Origin: Forficula auricularia
Lineage: Eukaryota; Arthropoda; Insecta; Dermaptera; Forficulidae
Length of the DNA stretch: 64,000 bases
Assembly: GCA_024734495.1 (NCBI GenBank)
Contig: JALMQS010000085.1
Span: 620,001-684,000 of the forward strand
Direction of reading: 5' to 3'
A model generated the notes under the pieces. It was not told the origin of the DNA. It was given only the letters and a program-made list of their open reading frames with translations, and searched no databases. Both the position numbers and the translations under genes were made by a program. Shown in pieces: positions 1,031 to 62,335 of the stretch (its first letter is position 1; the number at the start of each line of letters is the position of its first letter).

Positions 1031-1110
1031 GATTTTTAAGATGGAGGAAAATTTTTACGAAACGTCGGTATTTAAAGGAGTAAAAATCATGTTTCAATAA
1101 ATTATTTTAT
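1031..1110 (+). repeat. Family A hammerhead-like MITE fragment
   Basis: The segment carries a GGAGG-type hairpin arm, then GAAACGTCGG at 1059-1068 and a tail ending in CAATAAATTATTTTAT. The same order (GAAACGTCGGTTT, a run of A/G, then CAATAAAT) occurs in family A copies at 24.4, 32.8 and 40.9 kb. The 5' half with CTGAAGA is lost or degraded, so this is a truncated copy. Confidence 0.5.
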
Positions 1111-1270
1111 ACGTAAATTATATAAATATAAAATAGGGACCGTGCGTCCCGACATTAACACCAACTGGTGACGAAAATGTAAGCTTTGAGGGATGATTTA
1201 TTAAATTACAAAGACAAAGAGACTCGCTCACGGCCCCCTAGACACGGAGGTGCACTCTTTTATCTATATG

Positions 1271-1510
1271 ATATATCGTCGCCTTAGAGTGTAAACCTGC
1301 TAACTCACAACAAGGAAATTTTACAGGACAGAGAAAAAACAAACAAAATTTAATATTGTTGTTATGGAAAGAAACTATTTTTCACATTTTTTTTTCTACA
1401 ACTTAGGATCGTAATTTTAAGTAGCAGTTTTACTTGGACATCTCTTTTTCATGTCATATATGATAAAAATGAATTTAGCAGGTTTACACTCTAAGGCGAG
1501 GATATATTAT
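1271..1510. mobile_element. MITE with about 28 bp terminal inverted repeats
   Basis: The left end reads GCCTTAGAGTGTAAACCTGC (from 1281). The right end, about 1478-1500, is its reverse complement, and the match continues outward into ATAT-rich DNA with one or two mismatches. The body of about 240 bp has no coding capacity. TA-rich flanks would fit a Tc1/mariner-type MITE, but I cannot prove the target duplication. Confidence 0.75.
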
Positions 1511-2750
1511 ATAATACAATATTTGCCCCAATTCTCCCAAATCATTTAAATAAATAAACACAAGAGAGCGGTTCCTTCGGCAGTAGTGCTGTCTGCCTCT
1601 ATGTTTAACGCACGGCCCCATTTTTTTTATTTAATTCAAAGTAATAAGTTTCAACTTCCACATACTCTGGCTTTGCCTTTAAATTTACATATTTCTAAAT
1701 AGTAGTAAATGATTCGAATTATTGCTTAAAAACTCGAATTATTGTTTTTATTTGAAATATTCCTTTTATTGTTTTTTTTTCATATATGTACCTAGATAGT
1801 AATATGCTTTTTAAAAAATTCACTCTTTTCACGTATGATTTTTGAAAAATTTGCGCAAATTAAAAAAAAATCATAATAATAAATTAAGAGTTTGAGGATA
1901 CAAGTCTGAATGGATCTGATTCTGTATTGAAAAATCAGTTCGAAGAACCTTTCATTCCGACCTCAAAATATAATATTGTGATAAGAGAGTGCGCTCCAGC
2001 TACTTTTAGAATCTATTAAGCAAAAGACATGCTGTTAATGGCACCACGGATGGAACAAGTCGATTATCACCGAGTGGAGAGTGAGTAGAAGAATTCTTGA
2101 TAACATCATCATCATCAGAAAGTATTCAGATTTTTTTTTTATGAACCATCGATTACGAAGCAGGCGTTTCGAGTTTGGTTCATGGAGCGTAAGAATTTCA
2201 CTCACGCACACAAACACACTAAACTCACTAAAAAGGGTCTCTATCAGAGTAAAGGGCTGAGAAAAGGAGAGGAATTCTCCAACATCAACAACACCACCCA
2301 AGTTGCGTTGAGTCAATATCGAGAGTTTCGATGTCGAGATTATATTGTTAGGGAGAAAAAATGTAGAGGGTAGGTAGGTGCATAAAAAATCTGATTTTAG
2401 GAATGTTAATATTAATCGATACTTTAATTAAAAACTTTTACATATTCATAAACTTAACACCATGATGATTATGGTAGGTGATAGAAAAATAGAATATATA
2501 ATGGAATAAATAAACGATAGACCGGAAATAGAACTATTGTCTAGAAGAGTTGAGATAACTCGATAGAATGTATGTTTCGCACGCGGCTTCAGCTTAGGAT
2601 TACATCTTAAGCATCCTAATACTTACAGTTGATGATGAACACTATATGACACAGAAATTCTGTTCAAATCGTTGTGAATTCTAATGAAATTTTCTCATTA
2701 AATTAGATAAGTAAACACATATTGAAATGTATTTAATTTTTTTTTACTTT
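1511..2750. other. Unique AT-rich sequence, no supported gene
   Basis: Overlapping open frames lie on both strands at about 2035-2373, but neither has a recognisable motif and they shadow each other. A splice-like pair on the minus strand near 2202-2223 is probably chance. No repeat was recognised. Confidence 0.5.
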
Positions 2751-3450
2751 ACCATACAGGGAATTGTCAAGTATTGTAATCGCGCATGAAAAAAGTGTTT
2801 TTTCGAAATATCTCAAAAACGGCTGAAACTATTTTGATTAAAAAAATTGGGCGAAACCATGGCATTTCGCTCTACAAAAGAGCTCTAATAAGTGAACATC
2901 GAAAAAATTATATTTTTCGAGATAATAACTGTTTTGTCAAAATGTTTGTTAGTCTGTTATTCTGTACATTAACAAATTTTGTGGAGGAGCTAGCTCAAAA
3001 ACTAGTGTGAATATCAAAACCAAATTTCACACGAAGTTTTGGTGCATGGAGATTAAGAGCCGATTAGATTTTGGTACATATCAACTCAAAATTAAGCGGG
3101 AGGGGGGTTAAAATTTAATATTATAATATTTTCAAACTAAAAAAACAAGAAAATGAAATATACTATAAAATGAACCTATAATAACGACAATATTTTCTTT
3201 TCTGGCGCCAAAATTGGGGGGGGGGGGGTCAAAAAATAAAAATCTAGGCCATTTGAGAAAACTCAACCAAATTTTGTATATTATAAAGTCAGTGGGTCCT
3301 AGAACACTAAAAATGCAAAAACAAACTGCTAAAAATGGTGGCGGGGGAGGGGGGGGTCAAAAAATAAAAATCTAGGCCTTTGTACCAAACTCAACTAGAA
3401 GTGTATGGTAAAGTCAAGTGGATGGCCACACAGAACGTGTCAATTTATTT
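2751..3450 (-). mobile_element. Family B (hAT-like, CAGGGCCGG type) copy, ends missing
   Basis: Compared with the complete copy at 12086-12961, this segment runs in the opposite orientation. Shared landmarks are the ACCATACAGGG-like start, the CGCGCATGAAAAAAGTG block, the ATATCTCAAAAACGGCTGAA block, G-runs followed by TCAAAAAATAAAAATCTAGG, and a TATGGTAAAGTCAAGTGGAT end. The outermost terminal inverted repeats are not present. The G-run plus TCTAGGCC unit is itself duplicated inside (about 3215-3250 and 3340-3380). Confidence 0.65.
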
Positions 3451-3891
3451 TTTCAATCATTTACCTATGTGAATAATAAATATAAAAGACAATTAAAAGT
3501 AACAAATATTTACGTGGAAATTTGCTATTTTTTTAAAACTAGGTATTTATATTTATTTTTTACTAAATAACTGCGCATATTAAAATCAAATAATTAATTA
3601 AAATAATTCAGATAGTTTAATCTAGATATCTTTTAAAGTTATACTAGATCAGAAATTTAATATTAAAAAAAAGAACAAACACAACCGGGTGACGTCAAAA
3701 GTCTTTTTAGACACATTTTGATCCATTTGCAAATGTACAGACGGAATTTAAATTTTTAAATAAACTAATAAATCAACGTGAATGGTGTTTTTATTCTAGC
3801 ATGGGAATAGATCTTTTATATAAATAAACTTGAAATAAAAATGATATTTTCCTATGAGTATCAAATATTTCAAACGAATGATTTAATGTGT

Positions 3892-4165
3892 TCTGAAATA
3901 ATAACTGTTTTGTCAAAATGTTTGTTAGTTATTCTGTGCATTAATCAATTTTCTGGACGAGCTAGCTCAAAAACTAGTGTGAATATCAAAACCAAATTTC
4001 ACACGAAGTTTTGCTGCATGGAGATTAAGAGCCGATTAGATTTTGGTACATATCGACTCAAAATTAAGGGAGAGGGGGGTTAAAATTATAATATTTTCAA
4101 ACTAAAAAAACAAGAAAATGAAATATACTATAAAATGAACCTATAATAACGACAATAATAGACTG
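3892..4165 (-). repeat. Second copy of part of family B (direct repeat of 2929-3180)
   Basis: From AATAATAACTGTTTTGTCAA onward this repeats the 2929-3180 segment in the same orientation with very few differences, through the GATTAAGAGCCGATTAGATT block and the AAAATGAACCTATAATAACG block. The similarity is far higher than between other family B copies here, which suggests a recent local duplication. Confidence 0.8.
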
Positions 4166-5090: not shown

Positions 5091-5094
5091 TAGC

Positions 5095-5185
5095 TATATG
5101 TGTATGTTTATTTGCATCAATCAAAAGAAACCTCTTTGATTTCTCTTTATGAATCAACAACTCTGATATTCAAGTAAAAATAAAA
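5095..5185 (+). repeat. Family C repeat, 3' part only
   Basis: The segment shows TTTATTTGCATCAA, then CCTCTTTGATTTCTCTTTAT and GAATCAACAACTCTG. This is the same string of blocks that follows the hammerhead-like core in the copies at 19.1, 55.0 and 57.1 kb. The ribozyme-like part is absent. Confidence 0.6.
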
Positions 5186-5410
5186 TCTTTTCAATTCAAA
5201 CACAATTTATTTAATTTTGACATAATGTATCCAGTTTGGTTTTCGCCATTTAGAATATTTTTTGAAGTGTAAACAAATTGAAGGGTATTTACGACAGACG
5301 TGATTAAATGAACTTGGAATATGAAAGATTTGGTAATAGATTCAAATTTTCTTAAAAAATCATAAGATGGTGTCATCTATTAAATCCGATGGAATGGATT
5401 ATTTTTAATT

Positions 5411-5520
5411 ATATGTCAGAAGGGTTGTTTTTCACCCCCTCAGGAATCGAATCCGAATGCCAGTAACAGCAATCCAGGCCATCTGGCTCACCTGTGAGAT
5501 GCAAACCTCTCTGACATATG
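5411..5520 (-). other. tRNA-like module, left arm copy
   Basis: Read on the minus strand it starts ATATGTCAGAGAGG and ends CCCTTCTGACATAT, so its own ends pair as a long acceptor-like stem. It contains an A-box-like GGTGAGCCAGATGG and a B-box-like GGATTCGATTCC. The T-arm-like stem is weakened compared with the right-arm copy. It is not a functional tRNA, and a tRNA-derived SINE or cargo is the simplest reading. Confidence 0.6.
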
Positions 5521-5685
5521 TAAAACGGGTTAAATATTTTACTCAAAGATTGTTATCTTAATTTGTAAAATTTCTGGATCTAGGGATTCTAAATTTAAAC
5601 ATATAGCCATGTCATATAATCACTAGATTGCGAAATTTTACAAATTAAGATAACAATCTTTGAGTAAAATATTTAACGCGTTTAC

Positions 5686-5794
5686 ATATGTCAGAGAGGT
5701 TTGCACCTCACAGGTGAGCCAGATGGCCCGGATTGCTGTTACTAGAACTCGGGTTTGATTCCCGAGGGGGTGAAAAACAACCCTTCTGACATAT
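5686..5794 (+). other. tRNA-like module, right arm copy
   Basis: Ends ATATGTCAGAGAGGTT and AACCCTTCTGACATAT pair over about 16 bp. Inside are GGTGAGCCAGATGG (A-box-like) and CTCGGGTTTGATTCCCGAG, a perfect 6 bp stem with a 7 nt TTTGATT loop, as in a tRNA T-arm. An anticodon arm is not convincing, so a normal tRNA gene is unlikely. Confidence 0.65.
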
Positions 5795-5864
5795 AATTAA
5801 AAATAATCCATTCCATCTAATTTAATAGATGACACCATCTTATGATTTTCTAAGAACTTAGAAT

Positions 5865-8625: not shown

Positions 8626-10841
8626 CTACTGAATATGATTTATGTTTAGAAAGATGTCTGGGTAATAATTAAACACTAAAATTATATTAATACTAAAAAG
8701 TGAGTATTTAAGAATTTTTGAATTTTTTGAAAATAGATGAAATTTTTAAAAATTTCAACATCTCACCGAGGCTCTATCATTAAATAATTGATTTTAAAAA
8801 TTTATTAATTAAAAATGACAATTCTATTCTTGGATCAATATATATCTATGTATAATATTTGTTTTATATATCAGAAGAGTTTTTTTTTGTCTCAGATAGC
8901 CGAACTATTTCTCAAATTTATCTTTAAAAGCAAAAATATTTGTTAAACTTTTTTCTCTGGGGTGTTCAGTAGCCTAAATGGTGTCGAGCTGGTAATTCTA
9001 TCCTTTTAGGGATCCAATGTTGTCATCTTTTTTTTCTTCAATTTTTTTCTTATAAAACACAACTACACCTATAGGCTGGACCCTAATCTTGGGTGTTGTG
9101 GTTTTTTAAAATAAATATTTTTTTATTTTCTTTCGTTAAGTATATGTAGGTAGTATATCTAGCGAGAAATGGTCTATATGACTTAATTAAAGTCCAATAA
9201 AAGGATTTTGGTTTCAAAGTATCTCAATTTGCCAGGACCATATCAATATATGAAACGATTCAACCGTTCTAAAAGCCATTTTGCCACTTCAGGTGACTGA
9301 ATGATACAATAAAGCGGGAACAATGTCAAAAGAGTCAAATAAAACCCCTTTCGTTTTTTTGTTGAATAAAAGGTTTAAAAACAGTTTATTCAATAATAAA
9401 AGAGGATTTTATGGCAGTTCACCCGTCCGCGGTGAAAACGATTCATCAAAATTCTACCTGAGATTTCTCTCGTTGCGTTTTTTTCTTCTGGAGTTATTTC
9501 TTAGCGGTGGGCTGGAGAATCATAATCCAAACAAACAAAGGCTGATGTCATTGGAATGTTGAAATTCGGTTGTGTTTGTTTTGGTTACTTCTCATCTTCC
9601 GTTAAAATTTCCACACGTATTTGTAATCGCGTTGTCTGCCGATGACGGATGGTTGTTTCTGCGGCTAGCTTGTCGACAGACGATGAATGGCCCTAGAGAC
9701 CCTAAACACCCTCCAACTAGGGGCCGGCCCACCAATCGAATATATTTATCTCGTTGACAGCGATATTTGGGAAACCATTTTCTTATTAATCATTTTTGGG
9801 TCAGATAAGCGTCTCGAATAGTTGGATTTGAAATACGCGAAGCCTTTTGAAATGTTCAGGGGTGCAAAAGAGATATGAACTAGCCCTAAAATGGTCTTTG
9901 GGGACGACAAATGAACCTAGGAGAATTCCGAAAACCGATGATTCATGAAGACAGAGAACAAGTAATTGGAAGGCAAGAGAGTTCAGCTCAATTTCGCCAA
10001 AACAACCCTTGTACAAGGATTGTAAGGAGTAATACAAGGCAATTATACATCAAGCAAGCCAACAATTGATGATGATTATAAAATAATAATAATAATAACA
10101 AAAATATAGTGTTTTTTACGAAATTTAAACATCATTAGATGGAATCTCCTCAATGTTATCCTTATATGTTGGCACCTGTTTTTGCTAGAAGAACATCTTA
10201 GGCACGCACACCTTTGTTCCAATGTTCTTTGGTTTTGATGAACTATAATTAGAACGGTTTTGAGAAGATCTAGAGGTACAACATGATTATAACATTAAGA
10301 AGATTTTCCCAGGTTTATTAATTTATAACTTAAATGTTCAAACACTGTGTGAATAGGTAAGGATTAATCAAAGAGGATATCCTCTGCAAGAAACAAATAA
10401 ATACTGTGTGTTTCACACCATGCCTGCCACTTATTTATTTACTTACTCTAACAAGATTTGGAAGATAGCGAAAAAAATTTATTTATTTAATAAAATCCCT
10501 TGTTTTATACTAAGATTAATTAAGCGATCGTTTTTTTTCTTTCTTAAATCAAAACACTCATACTTGGCAATTGCATTTGACTTTTTTTTAAATAAGTTAT
10601 TATTGAAATATTGAATCTTGGAAATCGAGAAAAAAATTTTAATAACACGTTTATTCTGCCTCATTTAGTTTCCAATGGAGACTTCTTTAAGCTCAAAACA
10701 AAACTATACTACAAGATTTGTATCTATATAAATTCAATTTATATATTATAAAATAAAAGTTAAAGAAATATGTACTGTCTGTGATTCTGAAGTTTATAAT
10801 GGATAATGAATTCAAGGCTTATTTTATAGTTTGATTAAAGC
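8626..10841. other. Mostly unique sequence, GC-richer around 9400-9760
   Basis: The 9400-9760 stretch is less AT-rich and open on the plus strand (9323-9562, 9572-9757), but no domain is recognisable and no good splice pair brackets it. It could be a conserved noncoding or regulatory island. The rest is AT-rich with a short AAT microsatellite near 10085. Confidence 0.4.
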
Positions 10842-10872
10842 CTGAGGAAGCTTCGAATGAAGACGAAACATA
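10842..10872 (+). ncRNA. Hammerhead-like core
   Basis: CTGAGGA (10842-10848) is followed by an extra A, a weak CTTC/GAAG hairpin, then GAAAC (10865-10869) and an ATA triplet. The flanking helix is weak. It fits the core layout seen elsewhere in the window but is probably degraded. Confidence 0.35.
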
Positions 10873-11039
10873 GCCGAAAAATGTATTATAAGTATTTATA
10901 AGTAATACATCAACTATATCTTTTAATTCGGAGTATATGGGCTGTAATTATGTCTAATTTCTCTTTTGAAATAGATGTCTGTACTTTCTGTATAACTTAT
11001 TGTTTAGTTGAGAATTTTTAAAATTATTTAAAATCGAAT

Positions 11040-18707: not shown

Positions 18708-19114
18708 GTAAGTTGGGATTTATTAAGATTTTCATTATATTTTAAGATTTCACTTAAATACTTAAGTATTTTCCCACATAGGCCAATTTTTTTTTTATAA
18801 TTTATCAATATAGTATTGAATTATTTATTTTATTTAAAATTATAAATAAACCTTTCTTCAAAAGTTTTTATATATATTTAGAAATTATAATGTTATTCGG
18901 ATTCTAAAATAACAACGATAGATATCATTATATGGTAGACATTTCATCTGGTATGTAAATTTAATTAATAAAAAATTGTGTAAATGAAATTAATAAATTT
19001 TCCTGAATAAATTATCATTCGATATTTAACCCGATCAGATATAGATGAATTCATTTTGTAGTTTTGGCTATGGGCACATAAAAATCGTCATTAGAAATAG
19101 CAGATAAAATATTT
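18708..19114. other. AT-rich unannotated sequence
   Basis: Nothing recognised. Confidence 0.5.
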
Positions 19115-19290
19115 TTAATTAAAAAGAGTGATGATGAAGGTCAAACCTCCGAAACTATGGTCTCCAACAAATAAATCATAAATATATATGTTAAATATAG
19201 AAAGGTATAATTTTATTTGCATCAAGCTGAGGACAACCTCATTGATTTCTCTTTACGAATTTCGTTTGAATCACATTACGCTTATATAAT
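19115..19290 (+). repeat. Family C repeat with hammerhead-like core
   Basis: At 19128-19162 the core reads GTGATGA, an extra T, the GAAGG/CCTCC hairpin with TCAAA loop, GAAAC, TATG, GTC. The first C of CTGATGA is G here, a position essential for hammerhead catalysis, so this copy is probably dead. Flanks TTTTTAATTAAAAAGA and AATAAATCATAAATATATATG could form helix I. The shared 3' blocks (TTTGCATCAAGC, CCTCATTGATTTCTCTTTA) follow. Confidence 0.65.
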
Positions 19291-26884: not shown

Positions 26885-27507
26885 CTGAAAATAAAACAAA
26901 AATAAATATTAATTTTTATAAAAACGGGCAAGAAAATTGCAAAAAAGAGATAACTTTTCAGACTTGTTATATATAATACCTATGCCATTCTAAAATTTTA
27001 GTAATTCGGAAATTTTTTTGGTCAGCGAACGGTTTGAAGGTGAATCTTAGGACCAAGGAGAATTTATTTATACAAAATTTTCTACGGAATTTCATCACAT
27101 TAACAGCAGTTGGGTGGCTGCCAATATTACTGTTCTATTTATTTTCAATATTTCTACATTTTGAAACTAAGGCTCTGGAGCTAAAAAACCCAAAATCACT
27201 TTATCGTTTTGTAAATACAAATATTGTAGAATGAGAATTAACTTTCTAGAATATTTCAAAGAGCAAATAAGCAAAAATAAAAAAAAATTGAAATTTTTCT
27301 AATGAAAGAAGCACTACAGCCGACCGGCGAGAAAAGCTCCAAAAGTGTTTGTATAGATTTCTGAATGAATTAGTTAAATTTGACACCATATTCTTCGACC
27401 TTATGTTCTTGAATTAATAATGGTATCGAAAAAAAACATGGTCAAAAATGATTTCTCTGCATTTTAGAGATACTTGTAATTAAAATTAAGAAAAAAAATT
27501 GATTTTT
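26885..27507. other. AT-rich unannotated sequence
   Basis: No element recognised. The open frame at 27034-27234 has no motif support. Confidence 0.45.
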
Positions 27508-27567
27508 AACAGGAATATCAGGGAATTGGACAAAATTAAAAACACAGAGTTTTTATTAATTGGCCCA

Positions 27568-27599
27568 GACGTTTCGTCAATTTATTTTGACTTCCTCAG
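27568..27599 (-). ncRNA. Hammerhead-like core, left arm
   Basis: CTGAGGA, extra A, GTC hairpin stem with AAAATAAATT loop and GAC, then GAAAC, GTC. Flanks TGGGCCA upstream and TGGGCC downstream of GTC can form helix I with one mismatch. All core bases (CUGANGA, GAAA, GUC) are present except for the extra A before helix II. No self-cleavage can be claimed from sequence alone. Confidence 0.6.
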
Positions 27600-27872
27600 T
27601 GGCCCACTTTATCACTCTTTGTCAAAAAACTATTTCACTATACGACAAAACATCATTAATCGTTTTTTATAACATATTCCTGGCTGAAATTTATCAACAA
27701 TCTTGAACTTTTTTTTAACAATTAAAAACAACAAAGAATTTTTTTAAATTATTAAAGAAAAGTACAAGATTGTTGATTAATTTCAGTCACGAATATGTTA
27801 TACAAAAAAAGATTAATGATGTTTTGTCGTATAGTGAAATTGTTTATTGACAAAGAGTGATAAAGTGGGCCA

Positions 27873-27904
27873 CTGAGGATGTCAAAATAAATTGACGAAA
27901 AGTC
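27873..27904 (+). ncRNA. Hammerhead-like core, right arm
   Basis: CTGAGGA (27873-27879), extra T, GTC/GAC hairpin with the same loop, GAAA (27897-27900), AGTC. The C after GAAA is A here. It mirrors the left-arm core. Confidence 0.55.
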
Positions 27905-28036
27905 TGGCCCATTTAATAAAATCTCTGTATTTTTGATTTTGTCCAATTCCCTGCTATTCCTTTTACAAATTTACTATGGATGCGAATGATACAACAACAA
28001 AAAATTGATTTTTGATTAAATACTTTGCTTGCTTAC

Positions 28037-31520: not shown

Positions 31521-32539
31521 CTGTCAATTATCTGATCACTATACTAGATTTAATTGGATAATAGCAAGCAAGCCACGATGTATAGCTCTAGCTCACCACT
31601 TTCAAGGAACATTGCGCGTCAAGGGGCGTTGAAAAGATAATGGAACAAACAAAGGTTGCGTGCAAATGTCTTTGCCATTGCGATTGCCAATGCGAACAAA
31701 CAACGCACAAAACAGCCAGTCCATTCAAATTGAATCAAAGAACCCGAAAGAAAGAAATACAGAATGAAAAAAAGTTCACTAAAGAACATCAGATATATAT
31801 TTTTGTTACGACAGACATGACATCATTCCCTGAGGGAAACTACTTTGGAATATATAGGGGTGTAATTCTTCTAAGTATTGCTTTCAGGATTTATATGACA
31901 ATTCTAAGGACAAAGTTCTGAATTTTGAGTTTTCGTCCTTCACTTGGAATCTAGAGACATTCGACTTTATAGGTATTTTCCTTTTTGATCCATATCAATT
32001 ACAAAAATTAGTGTTTCTGCACTTTCCCTACAACTTTTTATATCATTAATTTTATAAATACGTTTTTTAACCTCTGTAGTCCAAGGTATATAATAAAATT
32101 AAGAAATTTCAGCAATCGGGTCGGAGCTGAATCAATACTTTATATGTGGATGCAGGTTCAGACCTGGTAAAGTTTGAAACGTAAAGACCAACAAAATTTC
32201 GAGTTAAAAATTTTTCATATACCTACTCCAATATTCATGATTGTCAAAATACTTTCTATACACACTAATTTTTATTTTATTTTATGTTTCAATATAATTA
32301 AAAAACTTTTTGTATTAAAAAAAAAAAAAAAATCTATTGTTTTTACATGTTTCGGGATAATTTCAGCCTGTCTTCAGTTTTTAAATCCTTTTTGGCTTTC
32401 CCTTAAATAATTTTTCAAACTTCTCATTCCAAAGCATTAATTAAAAAAAAATCTTGAGAAAACATTCATTGTTAATACAAAAATTAGATTGATAGATATA
32501 AAACTAAGGATTAAAGCTAAGCCAGTCAGTTCAAAGATA
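31521..32539. other. Unique sequence, no supported gene
   Basis: 31530-31930 is less AT-rich and has a plus-strand open frame at 31640-31921 beginning MEQTKVACKCLCHCDCQCEQ. The CxC run is notable but I know no family it fits, and no splice or translation context supports it. Confidence 0.35.
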
Positions 32540-32905
32540 AACAAAAAGATGATTCCCAATAAAAGAACATTTATTGAAAATGTTTCTTTTTACAGCTTGA
32601 GTTGAGCCGTCGTTTCTGAGAATCTTCCCTCTTTCTTCAGGATTCAAAAGGTCATTGAAAGAAGCTTGTATTTTGTTGATGGAAGCAATACAAAAATAGC
32701 TCTACAACACTAACGTGCACTGATAAAGGAGGTATGAAAGAAAATTGTTACATGCTTCTTTCAAAGACCCTTTTGAACTCTGAAGAAGGGGGAAAGTCAT
32801 ACAAAACATCAGTTCAAAAGTGTAAAAATAAAAATTTCCAATAAATCATATTTTATTGGCAATTATATTCTTATTTATTCTTTAAGTGCCTTCTATTCAA
32901 TTCTT
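32540..32905. mobile_element. Family A palindromic MITE with two hammerhead-like cores
   Basis: Inverted arms share CAAAAGGTCATTGAAAGAAGC (left) and GCTTCTTTCAAAGACCCTTT (right). The right end carries CCAATAAATCATATTTTATT and AAGTGCCTTC, a decayed form of the GGCAGTCC terminal block. Cores: 32609-32640 minus (CTGAAGA, weak hairpin, GAAAC, GAC) and 32780-32811 plus (CTGAAGA, degraded hairpin, AAAAC). Neither core is fully intact. Confidence 0.7.
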
Positions 32906-34043
32906 AGTTTAATTGAATACCTATATAGTAAGTATACATAATTTTTATATTATAATATGTTTTTGAAATAAGTCTAAAAATGTAAAAATTATACGTATTC
33001 CATGTTGAAGTTAGATTTGTGTTTTTGTATCTAGAATTTTTTAAATATTAATATTAATGTATGTCGTCTCATGAAAAAAAAAATTATCTTTAAATTAATT
33101 AAGGATATGTTTTGACTATAATTATGTAGGATAAGAAATTTCAAAAATTATATAAAGGGAAAGGTAAAAAGAATTTTAAAACTGAAGATTGGTTGAAATC
33201 AGCTTAAACATGGCTAAACAAAAGATTTTTTTTTTAAATACAATTTTTTAAATTACCTATGTATATTTCAGATAAAAAAATAAAAAAATCAGTCTGAACA
33301 GATATAATTTTGACAACCAAGAATATTGGAGTATATTAAATAATTTTGATAAAAAAAATTTCAAAACAAATATACTTCTTTTTTTATACATTTTTATTTA
33401 AATTTATGAAGTAACGAATTATCAGCCATCGATCTATCCTCGGTTGTACTCCCTTCCGTCAGAGAGGAGTCCTCTTCTTCCATAAGCAATGGAATGTCTT
33501 TGGATTGAAAGGGGAAATTAATCTTTCATCTTTGGATTGGATTTGGACTAGGATGGAATGTCCCTTTTGACTCACCCCCTCCCTCAATTTTCCGTCGAGT
33601 GTTTCAGATAATTCAACTTAATAAATATGATAATAATAATAATAATAAATATGAGTTGGCTTAAATAATCAAACGACAGATTCCCGAGTCATTTAGGCAA
33701 TTTATTTTCAAGTTCACTCTGCTCAAGAGAACTATTTCAATAGGTTTGTGTATCTAAGAGGAAAAGAGAAAGGATTCTTTTTGATTTTGTTTAATCTAAG
33801 GTACAAACAACCAGAGATCAACAAAATCATTGAAACCATTTATATCACTTTAATAGTGATCAATTGATTTTGAATTGTTCGGGAATCTCGAAAAAATCAT
33901 TAAATTTCAATCGAATAAAAATTTTTCCCCCAAAAAATCCTAAATTTTTATAAGTTCAGAAAATTGGTTTTCTAGGAGGAAAAGAGAAAGGATTCTTTTT
34001 GATTCTCTTAATCGAAGTAAAGAAAACTGCGATGCATCCTGGA

Positions 34044-34088
<45 letters not shown>

Positions 34089-39469: not shown

Positions 39470-39655
39470 AAAGGCAATCCAAGGATAATGAAAAATAAAA
39501 TTTTGAATAAAATAATTTATTGGAAAGACATTTATATCCTTTTAAAAACCGACGTTTTAGATGATCTTTTCTCCTTCTTCAGGGTTTAAAAATTTCAAAG
39601 AAGGAAACATACAAGAAACTTCTTTCTTCTCTTCTTCAACAGTGCTCAGATATTG
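39470..39655 (-). mobile_element. Family A hammerhead-like MITE, partial
   Basis: The left end AAGGCAATCCAAGGATAATG is the GGCAGTCCAAGGAT terminal block. Then AATTTATTGGAAAGACATTT and the core at 39551-39582 on the minus strand: CTGAAGA, hairpin remnant, AAAAC, GTC. Helix I is good (TTTAAACC before, GGTTTTTAAA after GTC). GAAA has become AAAA, so catalysis is unlikely. Confidence 0.7.
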
Positions 39656-40522: not shown

Positions 40523-40660
40523 AGCTACCCAAAAAATGACAAAAGGTCATAGATAATAATGGTCAATATGTACTTGATTAAAATTGATTTTCAATTTAAA
40601 AATTTGTTTTTTGCAACGAAATTTTCTCTGGAGAGAGACGGACTGGTAGAAATTTTAATT

Positions 40661-41023
40661 GAATGTAATGGAAGGCAGCCCAGAGGTAGTGAGGAAAGAA
40701 AAAATTAACACATATCAAATAAGGTGTAATTTATTGGAATCCTTCCTCCTTCTAATCTAATTAAGAAAAGGAGGAAAAAAAAATTGTTTTTCTATGCCTT
40801 TGTTAAAAATGAAGAAAGTTTTTGAACACTACTGTGGAGAGAAGAAGGAAACACTTTATTTGTTTCATTCATTGACCCTTTGAAACCCTGAAGGAGGAGG
40901 GAAAAATCCTCCGAAAAGTCGGTTTGAAAGGAAAGGAGGAGGGATTCCAATAAATTGCACCTTATTTGATATGTGTTAATTTTTTCTTTCCTCACTACCT
41001 CTGGGCTGCCTTCCATTACATTC
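40661..41023 (+). mobile_element. Family A MITE, best-preserved copy, nested in mariner
   Basis: Ends GAATGTAATGGAAGGCAGCC and the exact complement GGCTGCCTTCCATTACATTC. Terminal inverted repeats extend about 80 bp through AGAGGTAGTGAGGAAAG and CATATCAAATAAGGTG. The centre-right carries the hammerhead-like core at 40888-40920. Because it interrupts mariner it is the younger insertion. No coding sequence. Confidence 0.88.
40888..40920 (+). ncRNA. Hammerhead-like core with strong helix I
   Basis: CTGAAGG (A9 to G), extra A, GGAGG/CCTCC hairpin with GAAAAAT loop, GAAA, AGTC. Helix I pairs CCTTTGAAACC upstream with GGTTTGAAAGG downstream, 10 of 11 positions. The compensated helices are the strongest sign that RNA (or single-strand) structure was selected in this family. 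Confidence 0.6.
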
Positions 41024-41159
41024 AAATAAAAATTTATTGTTCTAAAATTTACCAAAGAACCGCGGAGACTTTTTATATGACCTATTAATTATTAATTATT
41101 TCTGATTCCTACATAAAAGACATAATTTAATAATAGTATCGTAAATTGGGTGATGGCTA

Positions 41160-41315: not shown

Positions 41316-42094
41316 TTCGATATACCTACTGTTAACTGCAAGGACTATATTTCTTCAAGATATGAATGACATTGATTGTACAGTCAGAAGTTATCTAATT
41401 TATAGAAATGTATATAATATGAAAACAATTCATTGTTTGAGGTTGAATAAATGTTGATTAATTGTAATGGTGGCTGACAAGTGGGTGGGTTCGGCTTGAT
41501 CTCTGCCTAATGATAAATGACAATTCATTTTAATTTCTTTTTTTGGTCCTTGAATAAAAAAACAAATTCCAGAGGCTCCGCGCCTTCGGGGGAGGGAAAT
41601 ATGATTAATCCCCATAATGAGTTGAATACGAATAGTGAACAAGTGACAACAAAAACAACACGCCAGTTGACAGTTTGACATGCCTATAATTTACTTTTTA
41701 GATTTTCTATATATTGTACATTATCAACGTCCTTTGGATTATTGACATTCATCTCTGGTTAGTTTATCTGTAGATGTAGGAAAAATATTATCGAAACGAA
41801 AGAGGATCTATTTTTATCAGCAATGCTGTGATAATTAAAAGATTTACGAGGTTGGGTAATTCAGACAAAAACAATGTATTAGAAAATTACATGATTATGG
41901 AAACAGATTTTTTTTAATTACAGCATAAATCTGAAAAATTTCTCTTACCATTCTTAAAATTATCTGCCACGTAGGCGGCCAAAATTGATTTTATTATTAA
42001 ATTCCATCGCATTCATATTATTTAGTGAATTAAGTATGTTAGTAGGTAGTTGGACGAGAAAGTAGAAAATCGGACAATTCTCATCGATTTAAGC
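41316..42094. other. Unique sequence
   Basis: 41430-41690 is somewhat GC-richer. A minus-strand open frame there (41430-41681) has no family motif. An isolated minus-strand splice-like pair near 41945-41960 is too short to trust. Confidence 0.4.
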
Positions 42095-42127
42095 AACGTT
42101 TCGCCAATTTTATTTCGGCATCATCAG
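42095..42127 (-). ncRNA. Hammerhead-like core, well conserved
   Basis: CTGATGA, extra T, GCC/GGC hairpin with GAAATAAAATT loop, GAAAC, GTT. All core nucleotides match except the extra T and a GUU instead of GUC triplet. Flanks (AGACGC before, GCTTAAATCG after) give only weak helix I. The surrounding element ends are not defined. Confidence 0.55.
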
Positions 42128-42194
42128 GCGTCTAAAAAATTTGATTTGATTTTTTATTATTTATGGTAGAAATGTTTGGAATGTGAAGAAAAAT

Positions 42195-42310
42195 CATTTT
42201 CATGAGTAGAAATCAAAGAGGTTGTCCTCTGCTTGATTCAAATAAACACACACATAGTCACATATATTATGTAAAAGATAATAGCTTCGAAAGTTTTACC
42301 TCCTTTTATT
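42195..42310 (-). repeat. Family C repeat with degraded core
   Basis: Reverse complement shows GGAGGTAAAACTTTCGAAGC where intact copies have a GAAGG hairpin and GAAAC, then TTATTTGAATCAAGCAGAGG and CAACCTCTTTGATTTCT. Confidence 0.6.
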
Positions 42311-44180: not shown

Positions 44181-44591
44181 TTCAGTATCGTGAATAAAAC
44201 TCTGCTCATAATTGATAAATTTTTATTTATTTATTTAATGGACCAAATTATTACAAATAGTAACAAAGTATAAAAATCTAGTGACTGATATCAAGTTAGA
44301 ATTAAATAACAAATTCCATATTTTTTTAACCCGAAAAAGAATAACTTTTTCCTGAAATATAATAGAAGAAGGGGAAGGGAACAGAAAGGTCCTACTTTGG
44401 CAGGACATGTCCCACCATTAAAACTTTTGTCCTACGTCCTACCTCCTAAAGGAAATGTCCTACTTGACGAATTTAAAAATAAAAATTAGAAGTCTAATTT
44501 TCCTTTTTTGTAATACCTAAATTAAATAGATGAGTTATAATTTATACCGTTGATCAAATTACACCAATACAAATAATTTAGTATAGAGACA

Positions 44592-44798
44592 GGAATTATT
44601 TAACGGATTATAGTGGTGTTTCACAAAGTGGAAAGTGGAAATTTTTTTTTCTGTTAAACCTCCTGATGAAGGGTTCATAGCCCGAAATATGTATAGAGAT
44701 AAATAAAAAAAATCTTCAAAATAATTTAAAAGATTTTTTAATTTTTTTAATTTTATTTCCACTTTGTGAAACACCACTATAATTCGTTAAATAATTCC
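44592..44798 (+). mobile_element. MITE with 43 bp inverted repeats and central hammerhead-like core
   Basis: Ends GGAATTATTTAACGGATTAT...GTTTCACAAAGTGGAAA and the complement on the right with one or two mismatches. The interior is about 120 bp and contains the core at 44663-44687. The length, inverted ends and absence of coding sequence make it a MITE. Confidence 0.85.
44663..44687 (+). ncRNA. Hammerhead-like core
   Basis: CTGATGA (44663-44669), extra A, GGG/CCC hairpin with TTCATAG loop, GAAA (44684-44687), TATG. Helix I and a cleavage triplet are not clear. It is nearly identical to the pair in the 59.5 kb palindrome. Confidence 0.5.
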
Positions 44799-45276
44799 TG
44801 TGTTTAATATGTTTCACTATAAACCAACACCGCTTTCCCTAAACTTTATTAGTATAGGGAGTCATTAATAATAACAATAGATATTTTTATATTAAATAAT
44901 GGGTACAATTGCAACAAAGAGTAATATTTAAAACAACAAGAGTAGTATATCCTATATCAATTTAAAATTATTTACTTATCAATTTTTACTGTTTTGTTTT
45001 TACTACCGATTTTTATTGTTTTAAGCTGGGTTGTCAAATGTCCTCCTGGGATGCGTTATAAAACTTCAAATGTCTTACTTTGACTATGTCAATATTTGAT
45101 CACCCTACAGAAGGGGTCAAATATCCTAGGCCCGCCAGAGTCACCACTTAATATAATAAAGTATAAATAATCTTTTTTTTTCTTCAATTGTTCAAGAGTT
45201 AAAATTTTAACGCTAATAATCGGCATTTGTTATACCTATATTTTAAAATAAAAAAATCAAATTTTGTTTTTTAATG

Positions 45277-49180: not shown

Positions 49181-50180
49181 TTTGAAAAGTTGAGAGGAAC
49201 TTAAAAATAGTACAAGATCTAAACAGAAAGTTATAAACTACAAAAGTAATATGGACATTTCATTAATAATGTCAAAGCGTTGTTATCACCATATAATTTG
49301 AATACTATACTATTCTGGATGGAATGATTAAATAAAAAGCAAAAAAAGGTAAAAAGTGTGGTTTCACTAACTTAAAATCCCGTCATTACGATTTAAGTAA
49401 TGACTCAAATTTTGGAAATTAAGATAAATAAAATATAAATAGATTGAAGGAGACAATAATTCCAACAGAAGACACACTCTTATTCTCTCTTTCAATTTAT
49501 AAAAATTCTGCTACTTTCGGCAAAAAGAAACTTTCAATTTAAAATATGAATAGGTGTATTATTTTACCAAATCATACAAACTCCACTGATTAGACTATAT
49601 TTTATTTTACTCTATAAAATGTTATTTTGATCAAATATTCAAAATTACTATGAATTTAGGTACAGAAAAAAATATGAAAATAAATTAGATTGTCCTAAAT
49701 AATTTTCGAAATTTAAATTGATACATATATTAATTTAACGGGTTTCTTATTTCCATAATGAGAAATTTAAAGAAAAATTGAAAATAAAAGTGTAATAAAA
49801 ATGATTGTGAATCTTTAAGAAGATTAGGTACATAAATTCATCCTAATATATATTTATTTAAATAGACAATCCTAATCCTGAAGAATGAACTTTTCTTAAA
49901 TAAAGTATAGAATCATTAAATTCATAGAATTTTTTCTATTGTCCCCAAAGATAAAGCTCAACTTAAAAACTCACACCACTTACGAGGAGTCATTCATTTT
50001 GAAAGGATTATTTTGAATCATTATTTTTACATTTTTCAAAATCATTATGTCAAATACCGAGAAAATAAGAAAGATAAAATATTTTTTAACTCGTATGAAA
50101 AATCCCTTAAGCAGAAGAATTGTTTGTCACCTTAATACATATGTAACGTGTGAATCACAAGAAAAATGCAAAATAATCCT
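49181..50180. other. AT-rich sequence with a decayed family C block
   Basis: About 49440-49530 shows ATTCTCTCTTTCAATTTATA and AATTCTGCTACTTTCGGCAA, relatives of family C 3' blocks. No gene. Confidence 0.45.
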
Positions 50181-52110: not shown

Positions 52111-52211
52111 TTTGAGGATACAAATTCTATTTTAAATAGGTGTTAGTTTTATTATTTTTTGACAAAAAACATTTTTATCTTTTATTTTTCTTTATTTTAT
52201 TGTCACCCAGG
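51331..52211. other. AT-rich sequence
   Basis: An (AT)n run lies at about 52085-52111. No gene recognised. Confidence 0.5.
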
Positions 52212-52245
52212 AATGTTTCGACATTTACAAATATGTCATCATCAG
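52212..52245 (-). ncRNA. Hammerhead-like core
   Basis: CTGATGA, extra T, GACA/TGTC hairpin with TATTTGTAAA loop, GAAAC, ATT. Four-base-pair helix II is perfect. TTTTAGG before and CCTGGG after the triplet could start helix I (AGG/CCT). Confidence 0.55.
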
Positions 52246-52385
52246 CCTAAAACATTTCAATCATTACACAATATATACAATGACAATTTCTCATCACAAA
52301 ACAACAACTCTCAAAAATTATATCAAAATGACATACCTTCTCAAAATTCTCAAAATTAATCAAGAAAATAAAATTTATTATCTTT

Positions 52386-55024: not shown

Positions 55025-55160
55025 ATAAAATATTTATAATTAAAAAGATTGATGATGAAGGTTAAACCTCCCTAACAAATAAATTATAAGGCCAACCTCA
55101 GTGATTTCTCTATATGTATCAACAACTCTACTACTCTCGACAAAAGATAACATGTTTTCA
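55025..55160 (+). repeat. Family C repeat, core deleted
   Basis: TAATTAAAAAGATTGATGAT, GAAGGTTAAACCTCC, then CTAACAAATAAATTATAA: the hairpin is kept but GAAACTATAGTC is missing. The 3' blocks (CCTCAGTGATTTCTC, ATCAACAACTCTACTACT) follow. Confidence 0.65.
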
Positions 55161-55267
55161 ATTAAATACAAAAAAATTTGCTGAAGAATTACATTAGTAA
55201 TGAAGCTGTTGAAGATTTTAGTTTTGTGATTAATTTGATTAAATTTTGAATTTTTATTTAAATCATA

Positions 55268-56405: not shown

Positions 56406-56409
56406 AATA

Positions 56410-56470: not shown

Positions 56471-56477
56471 ATATATA

Positions 56478-57084: not shown

Positions 57085-57220
57085 AATATTTATAATTAAA
57101 AAGACTGATGATGAATGTCAAAACTTCGAAACTATAGTCTCTAATGAATAAATTATACATAGGTGTTTATTTGTTTGCGTCAAGCATATGACAACCTTAT
57201 AGATTTCTCCTTATTAAGTA
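57085..57220 (+). repeat. Family C repeat, best hammerhead-like copy
   Basis: Contains the full core (57105-57139), upstream TTTATAATTAAAAAGA and downstream TCTAATGAATAAATTATA, then TTATTTGTTTGCGTCAAGCA and TATAGATTTCTCCTTATT. Ends are not sharply defined. Other copies are at 5.1, 19.1, 20.9, 22.0, 42.2, 55.0 and 56.4 kb. Confidence 0.75.
57105..57139 (+). ncRNA. Hammerhead-like core with two-base-pair helix III
   Basis: CTGATGA (57105-57111), extra T, GAA/TTC hairpin with larger loop, GAAAC, TATA, GTC. GAAAC-TATA-GTC closes a minimal helix III (A-U and C-G with UAUA loop) and ends in a GUC cleavage triplet. Helix I: AGA with TCT, an internal loop, then TATAATT with AATTATA. This layout equals the type I hammerheads with tiny helix III known from animal retroelements, apart from the extra T. 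Confidence 0.6.
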
Positions 57221-58535: not shown

Positions 58536-59429
58536 AAAAGAAGTTATCACTTCGAAAAAAATAAAAAATATACCTATCTATCCTTTATATTTGTTTATTT
58601 TAATTGATACACTTTCTTGTGACAAGCTTAGCCTAATTTAATTTCTACTCCAAGAACATAAGTAACAAGATAGGGTGTTTGAAATGAATTCAAAATTCTA
58701 AATGGAGTCATAGAAATGGCAAGCTAGCATTAATAAATTTAATATCAGTGGAACGAATAAGTCCCTTTGGAGATCTGAATCGATGGATTCATCTTGTAAA
58801 CCTTCAATCAAATTTATAATGACAGCATAAATTGGTTTATTAAATTATTCAATTATAGTTAATCATGTGTCTATAATATGTTTTTCTCTTTTGCGTGATA
58901 CATATTAAAAGTTATTAGGATTCTGATAATAACATTTCTTCCAATGCCTTCTCACGTATCTATACATAGTAATTTATCACCAATTGAGACCGTTGGTTGG
59001 TTCGTTTTCAACTCCACAAACTATGTTCATTATCTATGCATTCTATAACTGCTTTTGGAACGATTTAGAAGCCGAAACGTTCTGTTTATGAAAGGAATGT
59101 ATTTAGAGTCTCTCTTTTCATGTGGTATATTAGTACACGCTTCACTTAGCAAAACTTCGTAAAATTAATTAAAACTTTGGGAATAAAGTTAATTAGAAAA
59201 CTTGATGGGAGAAAAATATTTGAATGCTCAAAGAAGTATCAGGTTACGTAGGAAAATTGTTGACTATATTCATTTGATATTAAACAAACATATTAATTTC
59301 ATTCATAATTTTCAAATTTGTTTAGAAATATATGAAATGTGGTTAAAGATAAGAGTAAATAAATATTATATTTAATATTGATTTACTATGAGTTAAGGAT
59401 TCTAGGTCACTTATTTCACATTAAAATTA
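58536..59429. other. AT-rich sequence
   Basis: An isolated GAAGCCGAAACGTTC near 59070 may be half of a hammerhead-like core. No gene. Confidence 0.45.
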
Positions 59430-59599
59430 AAAGATGTAAATTTTTTTTTCTTTTTCAATATATATATTTCGGGCTATCAACCCATCTTCAGGAAGTACAG
59501 AAAGTAAGTTACTTTCTGTACTTCCTGAAGATGGGTTGATAGCCAGAAATATATATATTGAAAAAGAAAAAAATTTTTACATCTTTTAATTTTTTAATT
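59430..59599. mobile_element. Nearly perfect palindrome with two hammerhead-like cores
   Basis: Arms of about 80 bp meet at 59511-59512 with essentially no spacer. CTTCCTGAAGA, TGGGTTGATAGCC, GAAATATATAT appears on the plus strand (about 59522-59555) and its complement on the left arm. One arm has CCAGAAA where the other has CCCGAAA. The palindrome runs into the 106 N gap. Confidence 0.8.
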
Positions 59600-59705: not shown

Positions 59706-59784
59706 AAAAGAGTATAAATCAATTATTCTCTTGTTACAGGTACAACAAGCGACGAAATATTAATACGATTTTTAAAGTCAGTGC

Positions 59785-60350
59785 CCAATAATTCTACCTA
59801 TAATGACACCCGCCAAACGTACTAAAGTAAGATCCGTCGAGTGCGATTCTGCGGGGTATATGTTTGGCACTAACTTTAAAAAATAATTTCGTGTTAATGA
59901 CTTGTCGTTTGATTTTAGTAACTAAATAAGATAATAATTATTTTATACCTTTTAGTGTATTTTTATATTTGTTGCATTTAATTTTTTGAAGTCAGTTTTT
60001 ATTTTTTCATAAAAATTTTCTTTTTTTCTTTTTTTAGTGATGTTATTTATTAATAGCGTTTATATATTGAAACCGGCAAATTAATATGATACCATCCTAA
60101 GACCCCCTTTCAGTAAGTATAAATAAATTATATTGAAAGTTGATCTAAACAAACCTAATAAAAAAGTTAATACTGAAAAAATCGAAAAAAAATGGGACCA
60201 ATCGGAAGCTAGACTGGATATTGAAAAAAAATTCAATCAGTTTGACAATTGGCGGAGAAATGAGGTAACATAGGCACAAAAAAAAAAAAAAAAAAAATTC
60301 AATCGAATAGAGAACCTCCTCCTTTTTTGAAGTCGGTTAAAAATACAACT
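59785..60350 (+). repeat. Family D dispersed repeat, second copy
   Basis: CCAAACGTACTAAAGTAAGA, GTATATGTTTGGCACTAACT, GATGAGGTAACATAGGCACA-like block, a poly-A stretch, AATAGAGAACCTCC, and the GAAGTCGGTTAAAAAT end match 7240-7745. The palindromic left arm is absent or in the gap. Confidence 0.75.
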
Positions 60351-60370
60351 CACGGTGAAAACCTAATATA

Positions 60371-60800: not shown

Positions 60801-61312
60801 TATTTGGGATTTTCTATGGCGCACCTAGGAATGTCTCCAGGCATACCCTTTGAGTGCCACTGGTCTATATGAATATGTTGTACATTTGTACCAAGTTTAG
60901 GTTATCTTGTTCGCTTATAAAATATAAAAAAAAAACTCAAAAATGTAAAGAGAGCGTACCCAGTTTTGAAAAAACTTCCACTTTTAATCCATAGGTATAT
61001 CTTTCATTACAAATTAATTTATACCTATGGGTATGAACATACATTTTACACTTGAAGTCGCTCATTAAAGTTCAATTTAAATTGGTCATCGAGAACAAGA
61101 AAAAAATTCAAAGTTTTTAATAAAAAATATTTTCATAGTTTCCTTAGTAAAATACAATTATTTTTTCATCATATAAATAATAAATAAATATTCTTTCAAA
61201 TTTTATAATAATTACCTGTAAATGTCAACACTAATCTTCCTTAACCAATTTCTAATGTAGTTAAATTTTAACTATGTGAAATTAATTATTTATTTTTTTA
61301 TCTATGTTTCAG
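60801..61312. other. AT-rich sequence
   Basis: Nothing recognised before the candidate acceptor at 61311. Confidence 0.5.
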
Positions 61313-61366
61313 GTGAGAGAGGTTATCTTTTACGATGACTATCATTTGCGCATTAACACCGACTAG
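61313..61366 (+). CDS. Candidate 3' terminal exon, low confidence
   Basis: TTTATTTTTTTATCTATGTTTCAG ends at 61312. The following frame reads VREVIFYDDYHLRINTD then TAG (61364-61366). AATAAATAAA at 61417-61426 with a downstream T/G-rich tract (CGTCTTTTGTGGG) could be a polyadenylation signal. The GTGAGAGA start also resembles a splice donor, so the orientation of the junction is ambiguous. Family unknown. Confidence 0.28.
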   Translation: MREVIFYDDYHLRINTD

Positions 61367-61416
61367 CAAAAGGATTGCGAGAAGCCACTCATTAAGGTTG
61401 GAAATTGATAAAAAAT

Positions 61417-61445
61417 AATAAATAAAGATTCGTCTTTTGTGGGAA
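61417..61445 (+). terminator. Possible polyadenylation signal
   Basis: Overlapping AATAAATAAA (61417-61426) followed within 20 bases by CGTCTTTTGTGG. This pairs with the candidate terminal exon. In DNA this AT-rich an AATAAA alone is weak evidence. Confidence 0.25.
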
Positions 61446-61966
61446 GCGGAACTTGTTCCACTGGGCGGACGAGCTTGTCTCTAAGGCTAGGACCTTACCG
61501 GTTTTGTGCCTCTTAGCCAGTAATTATTCAATGGTATTGATGGAATAACGTTTTGGAATTTATTCTCTAATTCTAATACAATGAATGGGAGATTGAAGTG
61601 AGAAAGCCAGACACTAGGGGCAAGATTCAAGGCTTCGTCTGATATATTAGGCATGAGATCTACCTAGTAATTTAAAGACTTGATTAAAAGTTACTTTTTT
61701 CTTTATTGGTCCAGAACTGGTTAATTTATCTGTCAAATTTAATTATTTTTTAAGAATATGTCTTCAGGGGAATAAACGATTTCTGATATAAACTCATTAA
61801 AAAATCTAGAGAAACTTTGTGTAAAAGTCGAAAATTTAAATAAAAAGTTTTGACGTTTTTAAATAAACTTAAATAACTCCCCTCATATAAGTTACATTTG
61901 GAAAAGTAAGTTGTCAAATCTCAACTAGCCTTTGAATTTAGTTAATTCATGTCCATTATAATAATA
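61446..61966. other. Unique sequence, GC-richer at 61440-61520
   Basis: No gene or repeat recognised. Confidence 0.45.
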
Positions 61967-62335
61967 AATAAAAAATTCACGGGTTTTGGAGAATCTTTTT
62001 TGATTAAAGTTAAATATTAATTTTCGTACGACGTTTCGTCCTTTTCAGGATTTTATCAAGTACTGAAAACTAATGTTTGTTTCTTGTCTCGATTATTTTT
62101 CTTTTTCATCAAATATTAATATTTTGAGTAATTGAGGTGGGTGACATATAGCCAAATTATGTATAAATTATTGTAATTTGTAGTATTATGCATTCATTTG
62201 ATTTTTATAATCTAATTGTTCTGTCGTTCTTTGTTTTCAGTACTTGATAAAGTACTGAACAGAACAAAACGTCGTACGAAAATTAATATTTAACATTAAT
62301 AAAAAAAGATTGTCCAAAACCCGTGAATTTTTATA
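61967..62335. mobile_element. Palindromic element with CGACGTTTCGTC core
   Basis: Left end AAAAATTCACGGGTTTTGG and right end CCAAAACCCGTGAATTTTTA are exact complements. Inner arms share TAAATATTAATTTTCGTACG. On the minus strand at 62029-62047 the left arm has CTGAAAA, GGAC, GAAACGTCG, a core-like remnant with shrunken hairpin. The right arm has GAACAGAACAAAACGTCG. The loop is about 170 bp and AT-rich. Confidence 0.8.

Follow-up and report, generated by a model that had tools for sequence, protein, structure and literature searches.

A 64,000-nucleotide stretch of the Forficula auricularia genome (bases 620,001-684,000 of contig JALMQS010000085.1, called the window here; GC 27-32%, in a genome of 1.06 Gb on 845 contigs) holds many copies of a motif with the order of a hammerhead ribozyme core, several of them within short palindromes. 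What these palindromes are, and how they come to carry ribozyme motifs, is the question that this locus raises. A preliminary description, made from the sequence alone, had assigned the motifs to several unrelated families of miniature inverted-repeat transposable elements (MITEs) or foldback elements lacking a reverse transcriptase (RT). Our analysis points to Penelope-like elements (PLEs): the motifs are probably the hammerheads of PLE pseudo-long terminal repeats (pLTRs), and the palindromes short head-to-head PLE insertion products that would arise by two-ended target-primed reverse transcription.

Hammerhead cores in the window and in the genome

We scanned the window for strict cores (CTGANGA, a helix II of at least 3 bp and GAAA) and compared the counts with those in 200 dinucleotide shuffles. 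Ten strict cores were found against a shuffle mean of 0.55 (maximum 3 in the 200 shuffles), and seven with a helix II of at least 5 bp against a mean of 0.085 (maximum 1), so that the core frequency is well above that of shuffled sequence; eight of the ten coincide with places given in the preliminary description. A covariance model, R1, was built from 14 hammerheads, three of which are window cores (training rows in Table 1), and gave 25 window matches at E<=5. All 16 places described earlier lie within its top 18, the other two being at 6200 and 31376. Its E-values, which are rough and individually non-significant above about 0.1, range from 1.5e-7 to 0.17 for the eight places that had been called intact and from 5.8e-5 to 0.54 for those called degraded. 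This split was upheld only in part: all the places are model matches, but 40888 reads CTGAAGG and GAAAA, 27873 reads GAAAA, 44663 reads GAAATAT, and 10842 is without GTC, GTT or ATT and has an imperfect helix II. Rfam hammerhead models gave no match in the window at E<=5. The high density reported earlier was borne out, with 12 R1 matches at E<0.05, or one per 5.3 kb. These motifs are confirmed as real hammerhead cores.

In the genome, the generic core CTGANGAWG-N8..20-CGAAACGTY is matched exactly at 46,873 places (23,573 on the plus and 23,300 on the minus strand), and the reversed pattern, used as a control, at none. A family-A core (a 37-mer with a different helix III) adds 6,136 exact copies (control, 0), and the family H core occurs at 4,860 places with at most three mismatches (control, 0), a set that overlaps the generic one. 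Families H, J, G and E were also met again in ten loci that had been retrieved with another aim (L048, L054, L053, L016, L042, L079, L051, L041, L022 and L050). That AT-rich palindromes produced hammerhead look-alikes by chance is hardly conceivable, and is refuted for the main set by the excess over shuffles in the window and by the absence of the reversed pattern from the genome. Three matches do look accidental: the strict cores at 12607 and 20340 and the match at 55181 all lack the extra base.

The generic search required the first pair of helix II only and left pairs 2-4 free. Over 61 distinct cores among the first 100 of the 46,873 places, these three pairs are Watson-Crick in 151 of 183 cells, against a mean of 69.1 and a maximum of 95 when the 3′ arms were shuffled 5,000 times. 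Pair 2 is G-C in 30 cores, T-A in 14, A-T in 7 and C-G in 2, and pair 3 is A-T in 24, C-G in 20, G-C in 4 and T-A in 2. In helix I, which played no part in choosing the nine family representatives and whose register was taken from the known hammerhead layout, the first two pairs are Watson-Crick in 18 of 18 cases, as in 0 of 20,000 permutations, although the cores are related by descent and neither set of permutation counts gives exact probabilities. The earlier claim of structure-conserving change was thus supported, both helices covarying where pairing had not been demanded. Helix I is short in most families, with 2-5 contiguous pairs. As a separate observation, the family C hammerheads of L014 and L065 show GAGGGC/GCCCTC against GAGTGC/GCACTC in helix II, a compensatory double change within one family.

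The extra base before helix II, between A9 and G10.1, is real. Among the cores with at least four helix II pairs and G10.1 in 325,637 bases of examined sequence, 139 of 140 have one such base, a single core has two and none has zero. It is always A (21) or T (118), with T in 16 and A in 15 of the distinct cores; genome-wide, A or T occupies this position at 46,873 places and G or C at 905. The same place holds the extra A10 of the (+) hammerhead of chrysanthemum chlorotic mottle viroid, where U is also good and C or G is strongly harmful (PMC3705267). That case is a viroid, whereas the present one is a genome, which offers a large natural population for studying hammerheads with an extra core base. 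In the cores whose extra base is G, 31 of 52 other changes relative to the nearest family core are A to G and only one is T to C (62 scored of 65; 69 cores transcribed of 100 listed, for example C22:10219893 and C4:12163713); in cores with an extra A, 3 of 24 changes are A to G (32 scored of 34). The pattern of the G cores looks like strand-specific A-to-G clustering as from ADAR editing of template RNA, and the choice of cores may bias it.

The motifs have the CUGANGA...GAAA core with helix II (G10.1-C11.1), a helix I across the cleavage site and a reduced helix III. Judged by sequence, they would be minimal type I hammerhead ribozymes with one extra A or U, whose self-cleavage is predicted only. 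Helix III is self-complementary in most families (ACGT, ACTATAGT, ACTATATAGT and ATATATATAT), the exceptions being E1 (ATATGTAT) and the F representative (ACGAT). Among 11 cores folded in silico, dimers of A, C and E2 clearly pair through helix III and those of B, D, H, J and E1 do not, and the lowest-energy folds of the J core and the right H core are close to a hammerhead. The self-complementarity and the in silico dimers fit, without proving, the published action of short-helix-III hammerheads as dimers (PMC7229834, PMC7761336).

Penelope-like elements as probable carriers

A genome search for the GIY-YIG domain gave matches in all 150 candidates scored out of 3,423, with frames of up to 864 aa, and a single frame of 857 aa matches both RVT_1 (1.6e-16) and GIY-YIG (8e-6). 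Every one of the 18 PLE regions fetched (L021-L038) holds a hammerhead of family A, B or C, and the strict scan finds one in 14 of the 20 smaller GIY-YIG loci (L001-L020); R1, run on 19 of these 20, added hammerheads in L015, L019 and, weakly, L001. Family A is complete, with a PLE frame holding RT and GIY-YIG, tandem units and pLTRs, and in a tandem array its cores lie 2,909 bp apart, the unit period. Family C has a partial frame with both domains, and family B a partial frame whose RVT_1 match (27.1 bits) is under the 29.6 cut-off. All three families are linked to PLE frames for RT and endonuclease (EN). Among named proteins, the closest homologues of the PLE protein come from arthropods (Parnassius, Diabrotica), and those of flatworms, fish, frogs and rotifers rank lower in a list of 107 proteins at E<=1e-20 among 7,994 scored.

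In the window itself, three PLE protein queries gave no match at 1e-3, and 110 PLE queries gave one match, at E 0.095 (none in the reversed-window control). The earlier statement that RT is lacking therefore holds for the window, but the carriers are not distinct from PLEs, since families A, B and C adjoin PLE RT/EN frames elsewhere. Nor are the families unrelated in kind: A and I, the latter with a core 80-85% identical over 46 bp to that of the PLE-linked family B, are pLTR types of PLEs. For families H, J, G and E, we infer a PLE origin from their anatomy.

Minimal type I hammerheads of PLEs were reportedly described by Cervera and De la Pena in 2014 and by Lunse, Weinberg and Breaker in 2017. 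Thousands of them are known, for the most part scattered through non-coding DNA and in some cases within PLE pLTRs (PMC7761336), and they share with the present motifs the type I order, the reduced or absent helix III, the pLTR location, the non-coding dispersal and the proposed action as dimers (PMC7761336, PMC6155905). Compared with those summarised in these papers, the motifs described here stand out by an extra A or U in nearly all scored cores and by the many coexisting families. Anolis PAc (PMC11167929) and the Adineta vaga Pen families (PMC3846280) also have a frame with RT and GIY-YIG, tandem units, pLTRs and inverted head-to-head pLTRs, and the PAc hammerhead lies near the start of the open reading frame (PMC11167929), as here. 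Penelope/Poseidon PLEs likewise have an optional tail (~31 bp) on one arm and a target-site duplication (TSD) of 8-10 bp (PMC11167929, PMC3846280). Here, by contrast, most of the examined copies are short, palindromic and devoid of coding sequence, their flanking repeats mostly measure 12 bp, and one long and one short end are combined in 31 of 33 insertions.

Anatomy and origin of the palindromic insertions

We examined the orientation of neighbouring cores among the first 100 places of each genome-wide list. Family-A neighbours at most 1 kb apart are outward in 18 of 18 cases (minus, then plus; first 100 of 6,136), and those within 5 kb are outward in 20 cases and inward in two. In the mixed set (first 100 of 46,873), the 22 pairs at most 500 bp apart comprise 18 outward, 3 inward and 1 direct. 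Forty family-A sites were fetched, namely 20 close pairs and 20 places without a listed partner. In 13 of the latter an inverted arm is likewise present, in many cases truncated or with mutations in the core; among the remaining seven, L066, L067 and L077 exceed the fetched stretch and L069, L075, L079 and L085 look single.

The outer ends of 33 family-A insertions are either long (+177..186 of the unit) or short (+125..142), about 45 bp apart, and 31 of the 33 insertions have one of each. A flanking direct repeat of at least 11 bp is present in 26 of 33 and of at least 12 bp in 25 (mode 12), whereas among 2,000 mismatched flank pairs eight reach 11 bp and none 12; the repeats of L051 and L056 are of low complexity, L045, L051 and L053 are nested or interrupted, and the right-arm start of L073 was misread in the end table (alignment split). 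Inverted pLTRs with a one-sided tail (31/33) and a TSD (26/33) are thus combined in family A, and the tail is also seen in families H, J and E1 of the window. The starts of 66 arms spread from -1137 to +115, and junctions recur at -53..-40 and near -97, where the element has short palindromes. The longer arm is the one with the long tail in 7 insertions and that with the short tail in 11, and the arms are equal within 15 bp in 13.

Family-A palindromes are therefore head-to-head PLE insertions of continuously graded size, with hammerheads that face outward, unequal ends and repeats of about 12 bp, and their identification as MITE or foldback elements was not sustained. They are palindromic, short and numerous and the window is without RT, as would be expected if MITEs or foldback DNA transposons had evolved or captured hammerhead cores. 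This origin is nevertheless very improbable: in place of fixed, symmetric terminal inverted repeats and a short fixed TSD, family A has unequal ends and variable arms, arm length is continuous to more than 1 kb, and the same arms run into PLE frames at other loci. Short AT-rich palindromes with outward hammerheads should hence be checked before they are annotated as MITEs.

Two-ended priming at one staggered cut predicts head-to-head arms, outward tails and a TSD. In the mechanism that we propose, the GIY-YIG endonuclease would make a staggered cut about 12 bp wide, and both 3′ ends would prime reverse transcription. Synthesis would begin inside the element RNA, not far from where the coding region has its 5′ end, at an upstream start site for one primer and at a downstream one for the other. 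Both cDNAs would stop early and be joined at their 5′-truncated ends, which would leave a head-to-head foldback with an outward hammerhead on each side, one long and one short end, a TSD and usually no coding sequence; such internal initiation close to the RNA 5′ end would explain why most copies lack RT. If the start sites were chosen independently, about half of the insertions should have equal ends, whereas 2 of 33 do, which suggests that the two sites are coupled; our guess is that an asymmetric protein-RNA dimer uses each of them once. Longer (tandem) transcripts are probably where the ribozyme works, two copies of it forming a dimer through helix III. While the order of the arms, the asymmetry of the ends and the flanking repeats can be read from the genome sequence, two-ended priming and dimer cleavage are what we infer. 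A published study found that a PLE protein cuts and extends both strands, that reverse transcription starts inside the RNA at two sites bounding the "tail", and that insertion is unaffected in hammerhead mutants, the ribozyme cutting only with the protein present (PMC11167929); the hammerhead results agree with the absence of insertion ends at the cleavage site here.

Several observations weigh against this reading. Neither scan nor model found a hammerhead in the GIY-YIG loci L002 (with its larger copy L064), L005 and L006, a chance-like fuzzy match being all that L005 has, and no RT/EN frame tied to families H, J, G or E was found in the window and the loci examined, where their full elements were not located either. 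Half of the sites (20/40) had been picked as pairs, and a few are nested or of low complexity (L045, L051, L053, L056 and L073). Three of the 22 close mixed-set pairs are convergent, two of the 33 insertions (L068 and L078) have two short ends, and an automatic comparison of flanks in 16 window regions (12 of core families) gave a repeat longer than 8 bp for H only. Of 66 arm starts, not one falls where the ribozyme is predicted to cut (+33..+39), and the insertions hence give no sign of cleavage; for the monomers of A and C, other folds are more stable (-11.8 and -14.3 kcal/mol, against -7.2 and -10.5, respectively, when the core is kept free). Finally, equal positions meet in 13 of 31 junctions, several of which lie at local palindromes, and a comparison at six diagnostic sites shows the arms of one insertion agreeing in 147 of 159 cells, while arms of different insertions agree in 3,552 of 4,909.

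The last two points bear on snap-back synthesis: a lone first-strand cDNA, or else an antisense RNA, would fold back on itself at a local palindrome close to its end, which would then serve as the primer for the second strand. In Adineta vaga PLEs, which have head-to-head inverted pLTRs, TSDs and a tail on one pLTR, junctions at local palindromes were interpreted as such self-priming (PMC3846280), and several junctions here lie at the two groups of short palindromes of the element. The agreement of the arms implies that both usually come from one source; snap-back synthesis predicts likewise, so that allele sharing does not separate it from two-ended priming. It does not predict, however, the ~45-bp difference between outer ends, and with a fixed first end the longer arm should have a constant end type, whereas the observed split is 7 to 11. 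L051 also seems to join two haplotypes; the arms of L074 differ at three of the six diagnostic sites, but both are decayed. On balance, we regard snap-back synthesis as rather unlikely.

Families H, J, G and E could also be non-autonomous elements, similar to retrozymes or short interspersed elements, that borrow the PLE machinery and spread by ribozyme-processed (circular) RNA. Their copies run to thousands (4,860 for H), no coding partner was found for them in the sequence examined, and metazoan retrozymes are considered dependent on PLEs (PMC7229834, PMC7761336). Metazoan non-LTR retrozymes also have type I hammerheads in small, non-autonomous, low-GC repeats (PMC7229834), but these are direct tandem repeats of ~150-450 bp, whereas the insertions here are mostly inverted: among the close neighbours in the first 100 places of each list, the direct orientation expected of short tandem repeats between hammerheads was seen in 0 of 18 family-A and 1 of 22 mixed pairs. 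Moreover, family-A arms mostly extend upstream of the cleavage site, which indicates uncut templates, and the tail of family H holds an ATG, as expected for a tail within a coding start. We consider such a spread quite unlikely.

Returning to two-ended priming, little is understood of how PLEs integrate, and the inverted orientation of their copies and the tailing of only some ends pose a long-standing question. PLE hammerheads, inverted pLTRs, one-sided tails and the extra base (in a viroid) are already known, and this genome is a large new instance of them; the new part is the end rule and the coupling of the two start sites. The 40 sites examined of 6,136 exact copies give a sharp rule, with one long and one short end, usually a 12-bp repeat and no fixed first end, which makes the question directly testable in vitro. 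In searches of an open-access library, without the key MBE and RNA Biology papers, for MITE or foldback hammerheads, PLE hammerheads and inverted or two-ended PLE insertion, we recognised no description of this rule among the papers listed. Tentatively, and with somewhat more doubt than confidence, we suggest that PLE insertion may be obligatorily asymmetric, with start sites ~45 nt apart, that the joining of cDNAs, often at palindromes, may yield foldbacks and in this way tens of thousands of MITE-like elements, and that the rule may hold for every PLE family.

Elements of the window

The hammerhead-bearing elements and related fragments of the window are collected in Table 1. The one-sided tail of E1 recurs in L079 and L051. 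No clear flanking repeat was seen around the family J insertion, and the comparison of flanks gave none for the palindromes that begin at 32498, 59423 and 61971.

Table 1. Hammerhead cores, palindromic insertions and pLTR fragments in the window (E, E-value of the R1 match; training row, core used to build R1)
Feature	Positions	Strand	Remarks
Decayed hammerhead core	1021..1077	+	E 0.16
Family A pLTR fragment	5092..5218		without core; 82% to L012, 85% to L036
Decayed hammerhead core	10828..10882	+	E 0.17
Decayed family A PLE pLTR	19106..19260	+	hammerhead 19114-19169; 78% to L026/L012; E 0.0082
Family H palindromic insertion	27493..28013		15-bp flanking repeat AAAAAATTGATTTTT at 27493-27507 and 27999-28013
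Family H arms	from 27508		head-to-head; ~34-bp tail on right arm only, ~27965-27998, contains ATGGATGCGAATGATACAACAAC
H left-arm hammerhead core	27557..27613	-	helix III ACGT; E 2.8e-6, training row
H right-arm hammerhead core	27859..27915	+	GAAAA in place of GAAAC; E 5e-5; lowest-energy fold close to hammerhead
Decayed palindrome	32498..32913		divergent cores 32598-32654 (-) and 32766-32821 (+); arms 72%; E 0.54, 0.31
Decayed family J-type hammerhead	39540..39596	-	E 8.6e-4
Family J insertion	40611..41034		long tail on left arm only (recurs in L053); left copy stops short of hammerhead
Family J hammerhead	40874..40930	+	GGAGG/CCTCC, core damaged; E 2.3e-4
Family I hammerhead	42084..42141	-	GCC/GGC, ACGTT; E 1.5e-7, training row
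Family E1 insertion	44578..44859		flanking repeat TTAGTATAG(A/G)G by eye, 11 bp with one mismatch
Family E1 arms	44589-44634 (left); to 44801 (right)		left stops short of hammerhead; right followed by ~45-bp one-sided tail
Family E1 hammerhead	44649..44702	+	GGG/CCC, helix III ATATGTAT; E 2.8e-5, training row
Family C pLTR fragment	49456..49560		without core; 90% to L014
Family G hammerhead	52201..52259	-	GACA/TGTC, ATT site; E 0.034; divergent pair of family G in L042
Family A tail fragment	55089..55167		others at 21984-22067 and 42192-42256; none with core
Family A (PLE pLTR) hammerhead	57091..57145	+	helix III ACTATAGT; E 2.5e-5
Family E2 palindrome	59423..59593		divergent hammerheads 59452-59505 (-) and 59511-59564 (+); E 5.8e-5, 0.0041; right flank N
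Decayed palindrome	61971..62332		core remnant 62019-62062 (-); E 0.44

Two observations concern base changes in fetched PLE loci. In the right arm (2898-3846) of a head-to-head PLE insertion in L024, 10 of 13 changes are T to C and none is A to G, one of the ten being common to the other arm. RNA editing as the source of the A-to-G differences in L034 was rejected, since most of them are also present in L023 and L009.

The window also contains repeats of other kinds. No hammerhead core was found in the large palindromes at 5349-5856 (176-bp arms, 94%) and 34710-35205 (143-bp arms, 85%), and the inverted repeats at 34032-34103 and 12298-12436 gave microRNA-precursor matches that are far under the gathering score and likely due to chance. 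A repeat of ~700 bp with an internal palindrome, inside which no hammerhead was found, is present at 7048-7791 and 59706-60345 and is 76-94% identical to stretches in L035, L018, L002 and L022; it is possibly a separate element and an insertion target.

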